NCBI GenBank assembly: GCA_016744705.1 | Contig: JADGDU010000001.1 | Coordinates: forward strand, 1-64,000 | Direction: 5' to 3' | Source: Candidatus Krumholzibacteriia bacterium | GTDB lineage: Bacteria > Krumholzibacteriota > Krumholzibacteriia > LZORAL124-64-63 | Length of the DNA stretch: 64,000 nucleotides | Part shown: piece by piece, positions 44,627 through 53,612 of the stretch | Numbering within the stretch: position 1 is the stretch's first letter | How the letters are laid out: each line of letters begins with the position of its first letter | Made by a program: the position numbers and the translations under genes | Notes under the pieces: model-generated | Database searches by the model: none | What the model was told of the DNA's origin: nothing | The model's input: the letters and a program-made list of their open reading frames with translations, nothing else

Positions 44627-44655
44627 ATGCCGACCAACAAAACGTTGGCCGGCAT
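44627..44655 (-). terminator. Terminator after the third DUF4402 gene
   Basis: ATGCCGACCAAC (44627-44638) and GTTGGCCGGCAT (44644-44655) pair with one A-C mismatch; on the minus strand TTTTTTCGG follows. Its stem lies between this gene and the sensor gene. Confidence 0.8.
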
Positions 44656-44684: not shown

Positions 44685-45200
44685 TCAGTTGAAGTTTACC
44701 GAAACCCGATAACCGATGGTCTGATTGTCACCCAGGGATGCTGTGGAAGCATCTACGGTGATGTCGGCGCCCAGATTCAGATCTGATACAGCCGCACTCA
44801 AAGTCACGCCCACAAAAGTATTGGCGCCTGCTTCATCGGCTCCCCCATCGATGTTGATTTTGAAGTTGTCGAGGGTCAATCCCACCGCAGGAACAACTTC
44901 AGTGATGGCGATGTCATAGGCATTGCCTGCGATGGCGTTAATTGAAAAGACACCCTGGCTGACAGTGGCGGCATCGAAAGACAGATAGTCCGGGTCGGTG
45001 ATGGTCCCATTTGTACTCACGGTCATGGTACCACTGCTGAGCGCCACATCCCCAAAATTCAGAGCTGATGATTCGGTGACTGTTATGCCTTCCACGATAT
45101 CCAAAATGGCGTTGGTATCCAGATCAGTAGCCCCTGCAGGGATGGCGATCAATGCCGTCAAAGCCAATGTCGTCAGTGTTGTCTTCGTCCTTGAATTCAT
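44685..45200 (-). CDS. DUF4402-like secreted subunit (third copy)
   Basis: A 171-residue exported protein from ATG 45200 (AAGGAG upstream). Signal peptide MNSRTKTTLTTLALTALIAI ends near AGA-TD. The mature part fits DUF4402: N-terminal strand AILDIVEGITVTE, then ALNFGDVALSSG, FSINAIAGNAYDIAI and a C-terminal strand IGYRVSVNFN. DUF4402 proteins are small all-beta, Ig-like secreted proteins often found near pilus chaperones. It lies last in the fibre locus, separated from the hydrolase-like gene by 247 bases with no gene, and has its own terminator. It is probably a pilin-like subunit. Confidence 0.82.
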   Translation of the reverse strand: MNSRTKTTLTTLALTALIAIPAGATDLDTNAILDIVEGITVTESSALNFGDVALSSGTMTVSTNGTITDPDYLSFDAATVSQGVFSINAIAGNAYDIAITEVVPAVGLTLDNFKINIDGGADEAGANTFVGVTLSAAVSDLNLGADITVDASTASLGDNQTIGYRVSVNFN

Positions 45201-45227
45201 CGTTGTTTCTCCTTGATGCTTGTCCAT

Positions 45228-45243
45228 ATCCGCCATTGCGGAT
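45228..45243 (+). repeat. Inverted repeat upstream of the third DUF4402 gene
   Basis: ATCCGC-CATT-GCGGAT, a perfect six-pair palindrome 28 bases upstream of the start codon at 45200. It could be an operator or a leader hairpin. The rest of the 45201-45447 gap shows nothing clear. Confidence 0.35.
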
Positions 45244-45447
45244 GAAGTCCTGTTAAGGGCCTTACAAGGAAAAAACGTACCATTTGGAAGAGGGCTACAT
45301 TATGTGAAACACGGAGGAATCACGAGGAACAAGAGGAATCGGCGAGGGAAAGCACGCCATGGGAGGAAGGTAGGAGACAGAGGCAGAAACCATGCAAAAC
45401 CCATGGCACCCACAACCCTTGATGAGGTAATTTGCAACCCTTGGTGG

Positions 45448-47571
45448 TTATTTGGACCCGAACCAGCGCGCAATCCAGGCGGTATCCAGAGTTTCCTGCT
45501 CAAGCATTATGGCATGAATTTTATAACCCAGGTCATGCATTGTGGCTTGAATGAGTTGAGTCTGCGAGGAAGAGCCGCCACTCGATACGATACTGTAGGG
45601 TAGCTGGTTCAGAGTTGATCCCAGCTTTGCCGTCACACTGGCGGTAGTGACATCTTTCAACTCCCGGTAGAGCAGAGAGCCGTCCAGCAAAACTTCATGA
45701 CAGAATTCGGGGCCCAGCAGGCTGGCGCTCATGGCGGCGTCAGCACCATCTCCGAGCCCCACCAGCGTAACCTTTTTTTCACCAAACAGCTGAGTAGCCC
45801 ACTCCATGGCCAGGATCGTTTCCCGGGCGGCTCTTTCAGTATTGAGGCTACTGTAGCCATGAGACTGAGGAACCAGAATGATGGTACCTGGGTCCCTGCC
45901 AAGGGCCTCTCCCAAAGTTTGGGCCAGGATGTCCTCAGTCTGCGGCTTCGATGGCAGCACCATAAGCAATTTGAGATTGTTTTCCTGCTTAAATCCCTTG
46001 GGTAAGTACATACTGCAAGAGCGCATGGTCATGGTTCCGGTGGTGAAACCACTTTGGAAAAGCCCCTCATCAGGCAGACAACTTTTACCAGCCTCACTCA
46101 AGGCAATCATGTCCACCATACTGGTATACACCGGGTGAATGTGGGACGCATCACTTTGCGGGTGCCGGATTTCAGCCAGCCGGGTCAGCAGAAACAAGTA
46201 GTATTTGAGAGTGCTTTGTTCAGGACCTTTCAGTTGGTGGACTCTTTCATTCAAAAGCCCGAGCCAATTTTCCTGAAAATTATCAAAACGGATGTCACGG
46301 GCAAACAGGCGCCCATTGGCATCTTCAAGTTCCACCCTAAGGGCGAGAGATGCATCAGGCAAGTGAGACAAATCGATCTCGAAATTGTAAAGATTTAACC
46401 CCTCTTCACAGAACACAGCTTCAGAAGATTCCCCCCCAAGGGCGGCTGATGATTCGTCTTGGGGATGAAAGGTGAACCGGCATTGAGCAGCACCTTCAGC
46501 TTCAGACCAGAAGGCCAATTGAAGGCCCACTTCAACACCTTCTGTCAGACGATTATATAGGCGCCCTCTCAGACGGGCGGTAGACCGGTCGCTGTCCAGG
46601 AAGGACACAGGAATGTACCGCCGCCAGCTGTTGGCCACCAAGGCCGTCTTCTTCTCTGGCATTAAGGAGTACACCGGTTGGGACGTCCCTTCTCCGGTGC
46701 TGAAATAAAAGACATTCAACCCCATTTCCGGATCAAGAGAAGGTGCATAGGGTTCGAAAAAATCCCAGGGAATAGCGATTTGGTAGGTGGTCTCATTCTC
46801 CTGGCGGGAAATGGCTGGATTCAGCTGAGGCATAGGCTCCAGTAAGACTTCCTTGTGCCGACCCACCAGAGTAGCCTGCGCCTCACCATCGCGAACAAAG
46901 AAGCCATAAGAGTAGAACCGTCGGGAATCATAATCATCAGGTGAGACCGGATGCACAAGATTAACCAACACTCCGCAACCGCCTTCCCATGGCGGTTTTC
47001 CTCCCGTATTGGCGAGGTCATCAACAACGAGAGTGACCAATAATTCCTCTGCATTGAACGCGACTGAGGCCTGGGGCTTCAGATTATTTCCGGATGTGCT
47101 CTGCAAGAGAAGGTCCACCATCTGGGGTGGATAACCTTCCTCAAGAAAAATAGCACGAGATTGAAAGTCCTCAATGAAGCTATCTTTGTACTCATTGAGC
47201 AGAGACTCAAATCGGGGGTCATCACGCAATAAATCCAAATCAGGGTCTACTCCCATCAAGCGGAAGTTTGTGTATCCATTATCCAGGGCATTTTCCAGAT
47301 CAGCAAATGCCAGGTCTTTTTGGGAAAGCAGAAGGTCCAAACAGGTGAGATTGTAATGCATCGTGCCGTCGGTGCTGTGATCTTTGAGATAGGTGCGAAG
47401 AACTTCCTGGGCATCCGGAACGCGGCCTGATCGTGCCAGTTGAACCATGCGCAGAATGACCTGATCACGGTCCAGCGAATCGTCATCAGCCGACTCATTC
47501 ATGGCCGTGGCGCCTGCACCTGAAATCACCAATAAAAACAGGAAAATTGCCACCAATTTCAGGGAAGACAA
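45448..47571 (-). CDS. Exported TPR-like / CBM9-like / alpha-beta-hydrolase-like protein of the fibre locus
   Basis: A 707-residue exported protein with three apparent parts. After the signal peptide (residues 1-23), about 35-135 are helical and TPR-like (LRTYLKDHSTDGTMHYNLTC). About 165-310 look like a CBM9/DOMON-type beta sandwich (LLVTLVVDDLANTGG, YQIAIPWDFFEPY). The last 200 residues resemble an alpha/beta-hydrolase (VLPSKPQ, TIILVPQSHG). At the nucleophile elbow it reads GLGDG (605-609), so Asp608 replaces Ser. It may be inactive, or an Asp-nucleophile enzyme. The start is TTG 47571 with GAGGTG upstream. It lies 30 bases after the usher gene, so in the same operon. Confidence 0.7.
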   Translation of the reverse strand: MSSLKLVAIFLFLLVISGAGATAMNESADDDSLDRDQVILRMVQLARSGRVPDAQEVLRTYLKDHSTDGTMHYNLTCLDLLLSQKDLAFADLENALDNGYTNFRLMGVDPDLDLLRDDPRFESLLNEYKDSFIEDFQSRAIFLEEGYPPQMVDLLLQSTSGNNLKPQASVAFNAEELLVTLVVDDLANTGGKPPWEGGCGVLVNLVHPVSPDDYDSRRFYSYGFFVRDGEAQATLVGRHKEVLLEPMPQLNPAISRQENETTYQIAIPWDFFEPYAPSLDPEMGLNVFYFSTGEGTSQPVYSLMPEKKTALVANSWRRYIPVSFLDSDRSTARLRGRLYNRLTEGVEVGLQLAFWSEAEGAAQCRFTFHPQDESSAALGGESSEAVFCEEGLNLYNFEIDLSHLPDASLALRVELEDANGRLFARDIRFDNFQENWLGLLNERVHQLKGPEQSTLKYYLFLLTRLAEIRHPQSDASHIHPVYTSMVDMIALSEAGKSCLPDEGLFQSGFTTGTMTMRSCSMYLPKGFKQENNLKLLMVLPSKPQTEDILAQTLGEALGRDPGTIILVPQSHGYSSLNTERAARETILAMEWATQLFGEKKVTLVGLGDGADAAMSASLLGPEFCHEVLLDGSLLYRELKDVTTASVTAKLGSTLNQLPYSIVSSGGSSSQTQLIQATMHDLGYKIHAIMLEQETLDTAWIARWFGSK

Positions 47572-47601
47572 ATCACAACACCTCTAAAAGTTCAGTCCAG
47601 T

Positions 47602-50600
47602 TTAGGGAGCCGGATCATCCGGCCAGAGGGAATTACGATACAGCACTTCATAAACGAGGGACAGGGTTAATTCCTTGTCGAATTTGGGGAAACTCTCATC
47701 AGCATATGTCGCCCCAGCTTTGGAAACAACCGCAGCCAATTCGGGGCTCATGGTTTGCACAGGACTGACTTCCACTACTTCAAGGTTTACAGTTTCGGAC
47801 TGTACAAACTTTTTATCTTCGGTTTTCGGATCCTGAACTTCAGGCTTCTTGGTAGCCAATTGCTCTTCTTCAGGCTCTTCCGTTTCCTTCTCAGGAACTA
47901 TAGCGACCATGATGGGCATCTCTGGCTCAACGGGAACAATTCTCTGCAGAACAACATCCGGGCCAGTTATGAAACCGCCATCCTCAGGAATCAGGAACGG
48001 CACAGGTTCAGGAAGCAGATACCGATTGGTATTGATGGTAGAGGCAATGACGCCCAATTTGTATTCACCCGAATACAGCTTGGAGAAATAGTAATAGCCA
48101 TCAAATTCGGCAACACTGCTCTGGACTCGATTTCCTTCAGCGTCCAAAACTTCAAGACCCACGTGGCGAATGGGGGCCTCCATAGCGCCGGCATCCAGAA
48201 CCATGCCTTCCATTTCTCCTACATATGAGAAGGCAAAGTCCACATCTACAAAACTGCCCGGATGACCAACAACATTGATGCCTTCCGTCAGAGGGACAAG
48301 GTAGGGATCATCAATGGTATTCAAATCCAACTTGATGGTCTGCGCATGATGCACAAGCAGGCCAGTCAGGAGGGCCGCACCGTTGTCATTGCTACGAATG
48401 TTTTTCCAGGCTGTGAGATTCAAGAATCCAATGCCCGGCAGAGGCTCATCCGTTTCGTCGAATACTTTGTTGCCATTCAGATCAATGAAAGTGCGCACCG
48501 ATGCTGCACTGTGGTTAGCAAGGCGGCGATGCTGCACTGCAAAACAGCTGGACCGGTTGTCTCGGGTCAAAGAAGTTCCGATGGTCAGCCCGATGGAGGG
48601 CCCACCGAACTTGAAATAGCTGTAATTGGCACCCAGAGAGAACTGGTCAAAGAAGACAGTGACATCCAGGCCCACGCTGTCGTTGCCAAATTCTGGTTTC
48701 AGGAAGTGGGCCCCACGGGCAACCAGCTGCACACGGTCGGTTTGGAACCAGTTGATAGTGGCGCCGGCGGATCGGAATCGGTTGGGGCTGAGTTCATAGT
48801 TCAAATCACCGCGCAAAGAAAGGGGGCCCAGCTGGGCTCGGACTAATTGTGTACCCTTCAGATCACTGGCAATGCTATTTTCATAATGGGATTCCCGGTA
48901 CCGAAGATTGTGCGACAAGAGCAGTCTGCTGATGTTGCCCGAAATGTGGAATTTGAACTCATTGTCCATTTTCAGCACACTGTCTTCGAAATTCCGGTTA
49001 ATGGCAGACAGGTTATAAAACAGCATGCCTGTACCCAGATGCATCAGGCTGCCACTGCTGCGAAATACAGTCTCCCCAACCAAATTACTATTCCCGAAAT
49101 AGGCTTCGGCCCGATAGTTGGAACTGGATTTATGCGAAGCGAATAAGTTCTGATTCATAAATCGGGCTTGGCCTGCCAGTGAAAAAGCTGACCCACCTCG
49201 CATACTCTTAGCCAAAATTGTTTCCAGATAAACACGCCCCAGAGAATTATGGCTAGTCAAACTGCTGAAAAGCTCCTGGCTTCCCTCCACCCGTAACCTG
49301 GAAACATTACCCACCAGAGCATGTTTGGGAGTCAGTGAATAACTCAGCTCAACCTGCTGGTTCCAAGGTTCATTCAGGAGGTAATTGTTACTGGCAGGTT
49401 TCGTCAGCAACCCCTTACCCTCTCTCACCACAATTGCCCTGTACTTCAACTCGCCCACATCAGACATCTCGGCACTGATGTTAGCGTTCTTGACGATTTC
49501 ACGGGTTTCACCGCGAGGACCATAGAGAACCGTCCGGAAAATATTGGTGCCATAAACAAGAGGAACTTTCGTAAAGCGGAATTCCCCGATTGTTCCAATA
49601 GTCTGGAAATCGTATAGCGTGCCGTTGATATAGAGTTCGGCTTCCCATCCAGGTGGGGCATCACCTTGAATTTCCGTGGTATCAAATTCACGGTTGTGGC
49701 CGATGCTCTGATTCGTAACCATCAAACCCAAGCCCTGTTTACTCATGGAGATCAACGGAATACGAGAAATATAAAGATCCCCGGCTTCATATTGTGTTGC
49801 CCCTACGGGTCCCAGCAATCCGCCTTCAGGGCTCCAACGGCCAGCCTTCAACCGGGCAATGGTCTGGCTATGGTTGGTATTTCCCAAATGAGAAATGAAG
49901 AGGTTGGTTGAGAGTCCAGCGATATCGGCATGACTCTGCAGGGCGAAGCGTTGCGTAAGAGGTTGGCGGCCTGTGAGAAAACCGGCCGTTGCATCCACAA
50001 GGGGATAACTCCACATGCGATAGGGCGCCTGTTGCATGGGGTATTTGTTTTTGTCATTGCCATGGCGTGATAACCAATAGCTGCGTTGTTCATCTCGCTT
50101 GAGGCGACTCTGGAAGGGCAATGTTTCCCGTGGGGAAATTTTGACGTGCATGCGGGGGAGATTGATGGACAGGTCTACAGGCAGCCATTGTTCCAGAACA
50201 GTCGACTGGATATAGATATCGTTTTCATCATACCCCACAAGAATCCCTGGCAGCGGTTCCAAATTGCCTTCTCTGGAAATGGTCTGCGCCGGAAGATTGA
50301 GAGCGAAGGTGCGGTCCTCATGGATAATCCAGCCCTGTGCCGTGCCATTATCCGGATCCACCATGATACTCAATTCCAGAATGGAGCAGAGCTCACCCAG
50401 CGGCAAAAGAGTGGCCTCTTCATGCTGGTAAGCAATCAAACCATGTCCGGTGGCTTTGTTGCCCACCCGAACTTCCAAAACCAGAATATCTTCTTCATTT
50501 ACCTGAAGGTATGGAGAGGCTGTCGTTTCATTGTTTGAATGTTCTGCCTGCTGGGCATAAGACACCACCGCCGGAACAACCAGGGTTCCGGTTAATAAAA

Positions 50601-50643
50601 GGACGAAGATCGCCCGGGTGAGGTATGTCTGCCAGCGAGTCAT
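47602..50643 (-). CDS. Usher-like outer-membrane assembly protein with C-terminal extension
   Basis: A 1013-residue outer-membrane protein, 10 bases after the chaperone gene. A signal peptide (1-31) is followed by an N-terminal domain, then a long strand-rich region. Usher hallmarks include QGDAPPGWEAELYINGTLYDF, FTKVPLVYGTNIFRTVLYGP and YSLTPKHALVGNVS. Near 720 an SdrD/Ig-like segment begins (FIDLNGNKVFDETDEPLPG). From about 905 a Glu/Pro-rich spacer leads into 40 C-terminal residues. FimD-type ushers are about 830 residues, so about 180 are extra. Role: pore and assembly platform for DUF4402 subunits delivered by the chaperone. Confidence 0.82.
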   Translation of the reverse strand: MTRWQTYLTRAIFVLLLTGTLVVPAVVSYAQQAEHSNNETTASPYLQVNEEDILVLEVRVGNKATGHGLIAYQHEEATLLPLGELCSILELSIMVDPDNGTAQGWIIHEDRTFALNLPAQTISREGNLEPLPGILVGYDENDIYIQSTVLEQWLPVDLSINLPRMHVKISPRETLPFQSRLKRDEQRSYWLSRHGNDKNKYPMQQAPYRMWSYPLVDATAGFLTGRQPLTQRFALQSHADIAGLSTNLFISHLGNTNHSQTIARLKAGRWSPEGGLLGPVGATQYEAGDLYISRIPLISMSKQGLGLMVTNQSIGHNREFDTTEIQGDAPPGWEAELYINGTLYDFQTIGTIGEFRFTKVPLVYGTNIFRTVLYGPRGETREIVKNANISAEMSDVGELKYRAIVVREGKGLLTKPASNNYLLNEPWNQQVELSYSLTPKHALVGNVSRLRVEGSQELFSSLTSHNSLGRVYLETILAKSMRGGSAFSLAGQARFMNQNLFASHKSSSNYRAEAYFGNSNLVGETVFRSSGSLMHLGTGMLFYNLSAINRNFEDSVLKMDNEFKFHISGNISRLLLSHNLRYRESHYENSIASDLKGTQLVRAQLGPLSLRGDLNYELSPNRFRSAGATINWFQTDRVQLVARGAHFLKPEFGNDSVGLDVTVFFDQFSLGANYSYFKFGGPSIGLTIGTSLTRDNRSSCFAVQHRRLANHSAASVRTFIDLNGNKVFDETDEPLPGIGFLNLTAWKNIRSNDNGAALLTGLLVHHAQTIKLDLNTIDDPYLVPLTEGINVVGHPGSFVDVDFAFSYVGEMEGMVLDAGAMEAPIRHVGLEVLDAEGNRVQSSVAEFDGYYYFSKLYSGEYKLGVIASTINTNRYLLPEPVPFLIPEDGGFITGPDVVLQRIVPVEPEMPIMVAIVPEKETEEPEEEQLATKKPEVQDPKTEDKKFVQSETVNLEVVEVSPVQTMSPELAAVVSKAGATYADESFPKFDKELTLSLVYEVLYRNSLWPDDPAP

Positions 50644-50653
50644 TGCAGCTGGG

Positions 50654-51529
50654 CTAACCCTTTCCTAAAGGAACGATCAGCTCTGCAGCCTGGTCACCAT
50701 GCATATCCTCTGATTCCGTGTACCGCACGATCAATTGCCCGGAACTCAACATTTGCTTGCTGGCATCCTTAAGGGTGATGACTCGGGTGCGTTTGGGAGT
50801 GGGCAAATAGACCGCCAGGCCTCGACTCATGTGGAGTGGGGTTTCTTTCCCATCAGGTGCCTGGTGAATGATTTCCAGAGAGCCATAAACGGACCTATTC
50901 CCACCACGAACCATATCTACGGAAAAAACAGGCATTCCAGACAGCGTGTCCTTCATGACCAAATCGGGGTTTTCCAACTTGATGGTGGCTTTGGGGTCTC
51001 CCAGGCGGACAATGATCGGAATTACCGTCTCAATGGTAGCCACGGCCGTGACCGAAAGTTTCCCCTCGGCAATCAGGTTTTCCTCATTTTCTAAATCTTT
51101 AAGATGAGGCGTAACGGGAATGGACCTGATGGCTAAATGAGTCCGGAATTCGATGTTTTCCGGGTATTCACCCCGGGGTCGCCGAACCAGAAGCCGGATG
51201 GTCTGGGATGTAAACGGAGCAATGGTGACCCGCCGTGGTGAAAACCTAATGATTTGGTCAGCAAAGTATTCGCCTTCCATGGCTTTCTCCGCCTCAACAA
51301 TCGCTCCGGTTTCCAACATTCGCCTGTTGACCAGGGAAATTCGGTAAGTGGCCGTGCTTGCTGTTCGGTTGGTCAGAAAAACCGTTGCCGAACGGGTTCT
51401 TCCGTCAAAAAGAACACGCAAAGGAGCAATAGAGACCCCTTGAGCCCAGCATTTCTGGCCCAGGGGTACGACAAAAAGTAAAGCAAGTACGGATACAATA
51501 CAGGCGGTGCAGAACCTTCTCAGGCGCAT
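50654..51529 (-). CDS. Periplasmic pilus chaperone (PapD-like)
   Basis: A 291-residue exported protein; ATG 51529 has GGAGG seven bases upstream. Signal peptide 1-30 (ends CWA-QG). Two Ig-like domains follow: the first with PLRVLFDGRTRSATVFLTNRT and YRISLVNRRM, and FTSQTIRLLVRRP before the G1-type strand; the second with VFSVDMVRGGNRSVYGSLEI. This pattern and its place before an usher gene mark a chaperone-usher chaperone. The F1-G1 loop is long (IRSIPVTPHLKDLENEENL). It is 114 bases downstream of the second DUF4402 gene. Confidence 0.85.
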   Translation of the reverse strand: MRLRRFCTACIVSVLALLFVVPLGQKCWAQGVSIAPLRVLFDGRTRSATVFLTNRTASTATYRISLVNRRMLETGAIVEAEKAMEGEYFADQIIRFSPRRVTIAPFTSQTIRLLVRRPRGEYPENIEFRTHLAIRSIPVTPHLKDLENEENLIAEGKLSVTAVATIETVIPIIVRLGDPKATIKLENPDLVMKDTLSGMPVFSVDMVRGGNRSVYGSLEIIHQAPDGKETPLHMSRGLAVYLPTPKRTRVITLKDASKQMLSSGQLIVRYTESEDMHGDQAAELIVPLGKG

Positions 51530-51649
51530 CAACAAACCTCCAAATTACGTAAGTGTTTCCAGTGCAATGGATTAAAGATAAACCAAGACACGTGTCACCC
51601 CAGAAGTGGCAAATGGTGTGCCAGAATCCCGGTTTCTCAGGAGGGAGGT

Positions 51650-52177
51650 CTAGTTGTAGGTGGAAGTGATTGTAAAAGGGATACCTTGGCCGCTACCAAC
51701 CAGAGCAGTGGTGGCGTCCAGAGTAAGGGTGGCGCCAAGGGTTAAGACTAGAAACCCTCCGGCATTCAAGGTCACCCCAACGAGGGGAAGGATTCCTTCA
51801 CTGGAAACAAAAGACCCCAGTGAAAATCCGTTGCTGGCATTGGTGTTGATGTTGATGTCTACCAGAGTGTCCGGGTCACCGGTGAGTGTATAAATTCCGG
51901 AATATGGAGATCCGCCGAAATGAATATAATTGGGATCCGCGATGATGGAATCAGCCAAGCCAAGAGTGACGGCACCGTCTTTGTCGGCCAATTGCCCAAA
52001 ATCCATCTGTTGGTCGGTGGAAATGCTCACTTCAGCAGCGAGATGAATTTCTGGATCATTTTGGGGCCCCGGTGCTGACAGAGAATTATGAACCGGGCAT
52101 ACCCAGACTGATAAAAACACAATGAGGCAGAGCCAGAATGGCCCTCCCCAAGGTCTATTTTTTACCAGCAAGCCCAT
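51650..52177 (-). CDS. DUF4402-like secreted subunit (second copy)
   Basis: A 175-residue exported protein from ATG 52177 (AGGGAGA upstream). Signal peptide MGLLVKNRPWGGPFWLCLIV, ending near LSA-PG. The mature part: EIHLAAEVSIS strand, MDFGQLADKDGAVTL, YTLTGDPDTLVDINI, and C-terminal FTITSTYN. It is more diverged than the first and third copies. It has its own promoter candidate (52255-52260) and is followed by chaperone, usher and hydrolase-like genes. It may be a minor or tip subunit. Confidence 0.8.
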   Translation of the reverse strand: MGLLVKNRPWGGPFWLCLIVFLSVWVCPVHNSLSAPGPQNDPEIHLAAEVSISTDQQMDFGQLADKDGAVTLGLADSIIADPNYIHFGGSPYSGIYTLTGDPDTLVDININTNASNGFSLGSFVSSEGILPLVGVTLNAGGFLVLTLGATLTLDATTALVGSGQGIPFTITSTYN

Positions 52178-52254
52178 CAAAACTATCTCCCTACCCCGAA
52201 AGACCATTCTCTTGTATCGATCAAGCCCAGGTTACAGAGCCAGCAACTGTTGTC

Positions 52255-52270
52255 ATTATAACATGTTATA
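52255..52270 (-). promoter_or_regulatory. Palindrome overlapping a TATAAT box before the second DUF4402 gene
   Basis: On the minus strand TATAAT (52260-52255) lies about 78 bases before the start codon. It overlaps a perfect 14-base palindrome, TATAACATGTTATA (52257-52270). A good -35 is missing. The arrangement suggests a regulated promoter where a dimeric protein could cover the -10 box. Confidence 0.45.
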
Positions 52271-52343
52271 CTCTACCACTGACATCCGTATCATTTTGTT
52301 CAGTTTCTCAGGGGCTGGAATTGCAATTGATATGCCAAAGAAA

Positions 52344-52376
52344 GGCGGGAAGTTCCTTTTCAGGATTCTTCCCGCC
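52344..52376 (-). terminator. Terminator/attenuator after the first DUF4402 gene
   Basis: GGCGGGAAG (52344-52352) and CTTCCCGCC (52368-52376) pair perfectly; on the minus strand TTTCTTT follows. It lies 30 bases after the stop of the first DUF4402 gene and before the assembly genes. Intrinsic hairpins after a major-subunit gene are common in fimbrial operons. Confidence 0.75.
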
Positions 52377-52405
52377 ATTCACTGCTCGAAACCAAAGGGC
52401 TTGAA

Positions 52406-52912
52406 CTAGTCCAGAACAACATTCAGGTTATAATCGACGTCCTGAGCACCGAGCAAGGCTGCATCAGCATCAACGGTCAAAGTACAACCAACATTCCAAG
52501 TGTCAGTTCCGGCGATCTGAGTGATGGCAGTAATATCAGCCTCGTCTGCCCCACCACCATCAAGAGAGACTTTGAAAGCTGACAGAGCCAGGCCATCAGC
52601 TGCATCGGTGTCAGTGATAGTGGCATTCAAGGTGGCACCAATGATACTGGTGACTGAGAATACGGCAGGAGTGTATCCTGTAGGGTCAAAAGAGATATGG
52701 GCAGCATCAGTCATGGCTGTTCCAGGATCGGTAGCCAGAACCAGGGCGCCATCAAAATCGGCTACTTGGCCGAAGTCCATACCTGTGACCTGTGCAATTG
52801 TAAGACCTTCAACAACTTCAACAGCTGCAGTTGTAGGAAGATCAAAAGCCATGGCGGTTGTTGCTGTCAGGGCGACAAGGGCCAAGACGGTAAGTGTTTT
52901 GAGGGATTTCAT
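52406..52912 (-). CDS. DUF4402-like secreted subunit (first copy, likely major subunit)
   Basis: A 168-residue exported protein; the ribosome site AAGGAG is strong. Signal peptide MKSLKTLTVLALVALTATTA with cleavage near AMA-FD. The mature part begins with strand AAVEVVEGLTIAQ, then MDFGQVADFDGALVL, FSVTSIIGATLNATI and a GGADEAD turn also present in the third copy. The C-terminus is VDYNLNVVLD. It is first in the minus-strand locus, has the best translation signal and is followed by an attenuator-like terminator, which fits a highly expressed major subunit. Assignment to DUF4402 rests on motif pattern, not a search. Confidence 0.83.
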   Translation of the reverse strand: MKSLKTLTVLALVALTATTAMAFDLPTTAAVEVVEGLTIAQVTGMDFGQVADFDGALVLATDPGTAMTDAAHISFDPTGYTPAVFSVTSIIGATLNATITDTDAADGLALSAFKVSLDGGGADEADITAITQIAGTDTWNVGCTLTVDADAALLGAQDVDYNLNVVLD

Positions 52913-53122
52913 TTTCTAACTCCTTTTCGAACAGTGACAGTTTCCAATCCATTGTAAACTAGGATGGTTAATCTCAGATTCTTCCAAGACGTGAATTAGT
53001 TTTCGGAATCCCACCAACCGACTTTAATGTTTTTATGAAATATTTTTGAGGTTTCTCCAAATGCAATATCGGTATCTGATTAAAACCCCCTAAAACACCG
53101 GAAAATGCATAATGCAAGGGTA

Positions 53123-53152
53123 TTTACACAAGGGGCTTCCTTATGGTATAAT
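53123..53152 (+). promoter_or_regulatory. Sigma70-type promoter of the divergent small secreted protein
   Basis: TTTACA (53123-53128, five of six), an 18-base spacer, and a perfect TATAAT (53147-53152), 50 bases before the start codon. The 289-base divergent gap also holds a weak minus-strand TACAAT (52956-52951) for the DUF4402 gene. Confidence 0.6.
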
Positions 53153-53201
53153 AAAGTTTCCGATGGTTCCTTTACAGCCCTAAGCTTTTCAGGTGGGTAT
53201 C

Positions 53202-53612
53202 GTGCGAAATATGTTATTGGTATCGGCTTTATCATTTCTTGTACTGGGGATGTTGTTTTGCGCCAACCCGGTGCAGGCTGCCATCGTTGAGACCTTTGCC
53301 CGGGTGAATCTTGTGCAAGGAATGGATGCAGCACTTGCTTCGCCAAACCAGGAACCAGATGCCCTGCAGAACTCCACATCCTCAGGGCAATTTAAGGTCT
53401 CTGGTCCTGCTGATTATTGTGTTGAAGTGCAAATGACCGCCCTTGAACCCCAATCTGCGTGGACTGATGAGGGTTTAAAAGGTGGCACCACCTTCGGCAC
53501 CCACCACGACTCACAGGGCAGCCTGAACATGGACCTTCCCAATGATGACATGGACCCAGAAGAAACTGCACTCCATTCCCCCCGTTATATAGTCACCCTG
53601 ACATACGAATAA
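53202..53612 (+). CDS. Small secreted protein, possible fourth fibre subunit
   Basis: A 136-residue exported protein. GTG 53202 is chosen because AGGTGG sits five bases upstream; GTG 53193 or ATG 53211 are alternatives. The signal peptide ends near VQA-AI. The mature protein opens with IVETFARVNLVQGMDAAL, has SGQFKVSGPADYCVEV, and ends RYIVTLTYE. This N-terminal strand, central beta signature and aromatic near the C-terminus parallel the three DUF4402-like proteins. No DUF4402 FG motif is seen, so membership is uncertain. Divergent from the fibre locus with its own good promoter. Confidence 0.65.
   Translation: MRNMLLVSALSFLVLGMLFCANPVQAAIVETFARVNLVQGMDAALASPNQEPDALQNSTSSGQFKVSGPADYCVEVQMTALEPQSAWTDEGLKGGTTFGTHHDSQGSLNMDLPNDDMDPEETALHSPRYIVTLTYE

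Follow-up and report, generated by a model that had tools for sequence, protein, structure and literature searches.

The first 64,000 nucleotides of contig JADGDU010000001.1 of a Candidatus Krumholzibacteriia bacterium (GenBank assembly GCA_016744705.1; this whole stretch is called the window below) contain a minus-strand operon that we confidently regard as a chaperone-usher fibre system of a previously unrecognised deep class. It encodes three exported proteins of the DUF4402 type, designated here S1 (52406-52912, 168 aa), S2 (51650-52207, 185 aa) and S3 (44685-45236, 183 aa), a PapD-like periplasmic chaperone (50654-51535, 293 aa), an outer-membrane usher (47602-50643, 1013 aa) and an exported accessory protein (45448-47571, 707 aa). 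All these genes had been named in a first-pass annotation of the sequence, and all were confirmed at the locus; the gene order, which that annotation had suggested looking for in related genomes, was found again in relatives. Very probably, the operon serves to make a hair-like fibre on the cell surface through strand swapping, as in the adhesive pili of E. coli.

Standard family profiles hardly recognise the usher. Pfam Usher does not match the 1013-aa protein; all that was found were weak matches of the carboxypeptidase-regulatory/SdrD_B-like kind at the C-terminus. PF00577 (Usher), PapC_N and PapC_C were found neither in the window usher nor in the relatives scanned nor in the genome of the window, with FimD as positive control; likewise, no above-cut-off match to TcfC (PF16967) or CooC_C (PF15976) was obtained for the window usher or its relatives, with EcpC as positive control. 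Searching the PDB by sequence, with profiles of usher, chaperone and subunits, returned nothing usable. As family matches are weak throughout the operon, the sequence alone leaves the proposal of a fibre open, and other evidence is needed.

This evidence comes in the first place from the predicted structure of the usher. Its AlphaFold model (alignment of 65 sequences, mean pLDDT 82.6) consists of an N-terminal domain (residues 50-175), a barrel (215-720), C-terminal beta-sandwich domains (756-901) and a low-confidence tail. The barrel starts with six strands, which are followed by a plug-like insertion (322-374) and the remaining barrel to residue 720. In a Foldseek search of the PDB, ranks 1-18 were occupied by FimD or PapC only (best E 6e-30), whereas LptD barrels reached just E 4e-7. 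Furthermore, the usher profile aligned in hhalign with classical plus archaic ushers at 99.1% (E 1e-18, score 173), with archaic-type ushers at 98.8% and with alpha ushers at 97.5%. Of the controls, 15 column-permuted profiles scored no higher than 22, and the reversed profile scored 36. By its modelled fold (i.e., a large beta-barrel with a plug and N- and C-terminal periplasmic domains), by the Foldseek matches and by the controlled profile comparison, the protein is an usher.

A two-domain PapD-like chaperone adjoins the usher at nearly all loci. The match of the window chaperone to PapD_N is below threshold (E 0.007, Pfam) and PapD_C was not matched in Pfam; however, alignment with the E. 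coli chaperones in hhalign reached 96.7% and spanned both domains. The position of PapD R8 is occupied by Arg in 70/77 relatives.

The subunits S1 (E 2e-5) and S3 (E 3e-6) match DUF4402 (PF14352) above the Pfam cut-off, S2 (E 0.0045) below it. In the AlphaFold model of S3 (mean pLDDT 86.9), a strand-rich core extends from residue 52 to the C-terminus, and all residues before 52 are unpaired. The model thus represents an incomplete Ig-like fold with the last strand at its end and a free N-terminal extension, a topology that would leave an open groove. The best seven PDB matches of S3 in Foldseek are all chaperone-usher pilins (CfaB, FimF, PapH, FimH, FimA and others), and Caf1 is also among its structural matches. 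Classical chaperone-usher pilins are marked by Tyr at position -2 and Gly at -14 from the C-terminus, and FimA has both. Among 138 distinct C-termini of the new subunits, Tyr stands at -2 in 94 and Phe in 16 more, and Gly at -14 in 92; in the window, S2 has the Tyr at -2 and S1 the Gly at -14.

Two sorts of subunits can be distinguished across the operons, with ~24 and ~12 residues, respectively, between the mature N-terminus and the FG motif. Of 43 operons, 33 have the shorter N-terminus on the subunit encoded beside the chaperone (median 14 vs 24, Wilcoxon p 9e-4; lengths counted on the alignment, with signal cleavage sites set by a simple rule). In the long sort, as separated by a simple pattern, mean hydrophobicity alternates between hydrophobic and polar at every position from -24 to -14. 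This alternating segment corresponds to residues 37-48 of S3 (45093-45128, minus strand; L39, T41, A43, L45, I47), the very stretch that is coil in the monomer model and missing from the short sort. S1 and S3 belong to the long sort. The mature N-terminus of S1, FDLPTTAAVEVVEGLTI, starts 24 residues ahead of the FG motif, and its proposed donor strand (residues 23-34; 52811-52846, minus strand) carries the alternation L-T-A-V-V. The mature N-terminus of S2, APGPQNDPEIHLAAEVSI, in contrast, has P, P, N and P at the positions taken in S1 and S3 by small or hydrophobic donor residues; this proline-rich region is not conserved among orthologues. S2 is therefore likely, judging from these residues, to be the tip or initiator subunit of the fibre; S1 and S3 are probable shaft subunits. 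The first-pass annotation had staked its proposal on an usher-type barrel in the 1013-residue protein and on subunits without a complete Ig fold, and both are borne out by the models; its suggestion that an alternating N-terminal strand is common to all three subunits applies to S1 and S3 and had to be withdrawn for S2.

Two side observations concern the subunits. At locus L103 (15095-16039, minus strand) a natural fusion of two DUF4402 domains is encoded, of which the first has no N-terminal extension and the second has one in the linker. The S2-type genes at L044, L045 and L047 encode proteins of 268-276 aa with a long variable N-terminal region, which may contain a small module for the tip or for adhesion or may reflect over-long start calls.

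The assembly may be pictured as follows. S1, S2 and S3, each with an incomplete Ig-like fold, would be exported to the periplasm, where the G1 strand of the PapD-like chaperone would complete the subunit fold (donor-strand complementation). The usher would receive the chaperone-subunit complexes and thread the growing fibre through its barrel. S2, which has no donor-like strand, would come first and form the tip; behind it, each S1 or S3 would insert its alternating N-terminal strand into the groove of the preceding subunit (donor-strand exchange), giving the shaft. The resulting fibre may have an adhesive function.

Several points weigh against this scheme. The fibre is deduced here from genes and models, and the proposed strand pairing between chaperone and subunit from monomer models. 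The pilin matches of S3 are weak (E only 0.008-0.02), and in profile comparison DUF4402 had no significant link to FimA-type or SCPU pilins; for SCPU (PF05229), the link reached only 35% and covered the C-terminal 29 columns, the subunits matching PF14352 instead. The short/long pattern is clearest in Proteobacteria, and in the window it depends on the composition of S2. Finally, the chaperone has only the first half of the classical Arg8 plus Lys112 pair, as the Lys112 position is Pro in 74/77 relatives. In archaic and alternative chaperones a conserved Arg of domain 1 serves as anchor instead (PMC4654587). The position aligned with this non-classical Arg (CsuC Arg89) is His in 73/77, and a conserved Arg is found two residues earlier; Arg131 of the window chaperone was considered for this anchor and rejected, since it is His133 that aligns at that position. 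With Pro at one site and His at the other, neither of the known subunit anchors is complete in the chaperone, as far as can be read from the alignment.

In place of a discrete pilus, the same strand exchange could also yield a thin amorphous coat or a Caf1-like polyadhesin. The number of subunits is small, the proteobacterial operons lack a large two-domain adhesin, and Caf1 appears among the structural matches mentioned above. Nothing decisive speaks against such a product, since coat and fibre are indistinguishable by gene content; we consider it possible but clearly less probable than a fibre.

Chaperone-usher systems have been described as three groups comprising six clades (PMC9452303), and the operon might simply be an ordinary member of the archaic (sigma), the alternative (alpha) or the classical group that Pfam misses. 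Its chaperone and usher are indeed homologous to known ones, the gene layout is similar, and the archaic group is also known outside Proteobacteria (PMC4654587). However, in a tree of 44 ushers, 21 of them from the new family, three sets each split off with support of 100/99: the 21 new ushers, the alpha ushers, and 14 of the 15 classical plus archaic ushers. The remaining sequence (L163) has a long branch, may have been read in a wrong frame and falls outside the classical plus archaic set; the second reference set of ushers was confirmed as archaic by adjoining SCPU subunit genes. As, in addition, the subunits are DUF4402 proteins and not of SCPU or FimA type, and the Pfam/NCBIfam families typical of FimD-like or EcpC-like ushers do not match, ordinary membership appears improbable. 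Still less probable is that the large protein exports or anchors monomeric DUF4402 proteins and is not a polymerising usher, an idea to which the derivation of the fibre from genes and models and the atypical S2 N-terminus lend something, but which is at odds with the usher fold including its plug-like insertion, the dedicated chaperone beside the usher in nearly every locus and the donor-strand-like extensions of the subunits.

The reading as a separate class of fibre system is thus preferred, and the comparison with the known groups is instructive. With classical pili (type 1, FimA/C/D/H; P, PapA/C/D/G) the new system shares the usher fold with its plug-like insertion, a PapD-like chaperone that keeps the Arg of R8, the C-terminal marks of the subunits (Tyr at -2, Gly at -14) and an N-terminal donor-like strand on the shaft subunits. 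It differs from them in the missing matches to Usher, PapC_N, PapC_C and PapD_C, in the missing Lys at the K112 position and in subunits without detectable sequence link to FimA; identity in the structural alignments is ~11-13%. Archaic pili, e.g. Csu, are likewise spread over many phyla and have the same layout of subunits plus chaperone plus usher (PMC4654587, PMC9452303). Besides their closeness in the usher profile, their subunits have ends of the same A-G-x-Y...V-T-V-x-Y form; however, the new subunits are not SCPU, the new chaperone has His aligned with the archaic Arg, and the archaic ushers group with the classical ones, apart from the new clade. To alternative pili (e.g., Ecp, CFA/I) the usher is homologous as well, and EcpC also has a weak carboxypeptidase-regulatory-like C-terminal match, whereas the new ushers lack above-cut-off TcfC or CooC_C, form a separate clade and are accompanied by other chaperone and subunit families. 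The first-pass idea of a DUF4402-built chaperone-usher fibre of a distinct class is therefore supported by the usher model, the incomplete subunit fold, the separate clade and the missing Pfam matches. We lean towards going further, to a fourth major chaperone-usher group that branches off as deeply as alternative systems do from classical/archaic ones, that is present in at least Krumholzibacteriota, Pseudomonadota, Desulfobacterota and Acidobacteriota and whose chaperone holds the subunit C-terminus by a set of residues unlike both known anchors.

Within the same family, relatives of the usher have 31-71% identity, the highest value belonging to a genome (G004) of the same genus as that of the window. 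A search by conserved peptides revealed usher relatives on 324 stretches from named genomes, among them Halomonas, Marinobacter, Massilia, Vibrio, Sphingomonas, Desulfobacterota and Acidobacteriota, and the same operon is present in Halomonas, Marinobacter, Massilia, Sphingomonas and Desulfobacterota. The first-pass annotation had placed the fibre class in a phylum where such fibres are not well described. A distinct class does occur in Krumholzibacteriota, but it is not confined there and is widespread in Proteobacteria.

DUF4402 and the new usher co-occur almost perfectly. Among 80 Krumholzibacteriota genomes, DUF4402 was found in 13, all 13 of which have the usher, and 66 have neither (Fisher p 4e-14); in an even sample of 143 Gammaproteobacteria, DUF4402 is present in 5 of the 6 genomes with a full-length usher (Fisher p 8e-8), although the genomes in these counts are related, which makes both p-values too small and counts as a further reservation. 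The pattern is clear despite this kinship. In the genus of the window itself, two genomes have both DUF4402 and the usher and four have neither. The only usher-positive genome of the 80 without DUF4402 is G045, which carries a distant usher. Its locus (L038) and those of G053 (L036) and G139 (L037) contain more distant usher-chaperone pairs (~19% identity), in G045 next to a PilY1/VWA-like gene, and these pairs are possibly a sister class with other subunits. In the gammaproteobacterial sample, the new usher (full-length) occurs in 6 genomes, PF00577 in 8 and TcfC in 7. The PF00577 usher is absent from 13 of the 15 genomes that carry the new one.

In NCBI records the genes appear in the order DUF4402, hypothetical or DUF4402, chaperone (or hypothetical) and carboxypeptidase regulatory-like protein, i.e., the parts are listed one by one and the system is unnamed. 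A literature search for DUF4402 or PF14352 found no paper, but preprints and most subscription journals lay outside this search and a prior description is possible.

Two further observations concern the new ushers and the mobility of the operon. Some proteobacterial ushers of the new family (L052, L069) carry a C-terminal SPOR domain. Such domains usually bind septal peptidoglycan, which hints that the fibre is located close to the site of division. At L191 and L192 (Polaromonas sp. JS666 plasmid 2) the operon is located on plasmids, and in JS666 it lies between IS6 elements on a conjugative plasmid, so that it can move between hosts.

The accessory protein, encoded on the minus strand between usher and S3, is conserved next to the usher among relatives of the same family, whereas the proteobacterial operons do not have it there, and it is treated here as a lineage-specific addition. 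A TPR end domain (NCBIfam TPR_END_plus, E 1.6e-12) lies near its N-terminus, and its C-terminal part is alpha/beta-hydrolase-like. A role as hydrolase was rejected, as the orthologue alignment shows no G-x-S-x-G nucleophile in this part; the position of the protein prompts the guess of a role at the surface or in assembly. Downstream, a terminator-like hairpin (44627-44655, minus strand; 13-pair stem, then a T run) lies 30 bases 3' of S3 and is the strongest such site in the region. The operon probably ends there, and the six minus-strand genes are therefore probably one operon. The statement that all genes lie on one strand is correct for these six, but not for a divergent gene on the plus strand (53193-53612) encoding an exported protein of 139 aa. 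It is kept beside the operon in four relatives (L023, L024, L025, L026), and its product ends in ..TLTYE and aligns with DUF4402 at 89.8% in hhalign, partly via the signal peptide. The protein may be a further, short subunit that is divergently transcribed. A sigma-70-like promoter match (53123-53152; 11 of 12, extended -10) is found just upstream of this gene.

The DUF4402-type system represents a new class of the chaperone-usher pathway, and its members would form fibres. The operon adds an usher clade that lies outside all clades sampled here and includes culturable genera (e.g., Halomonas, Marinobacter, Massilia). For the uncharacterised family DUF4402 it suggests a role, that of fibre subunit, which can be tested. 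As the new usher is labelled "carboxypeptidase regulatory-like" in public records, surveys based on Pfam Usher miss it. With its deeply diverged parts unrecognised by annotation and present in many Proteobacteria, a widespread class of surface fibres appears to have been overlooked.

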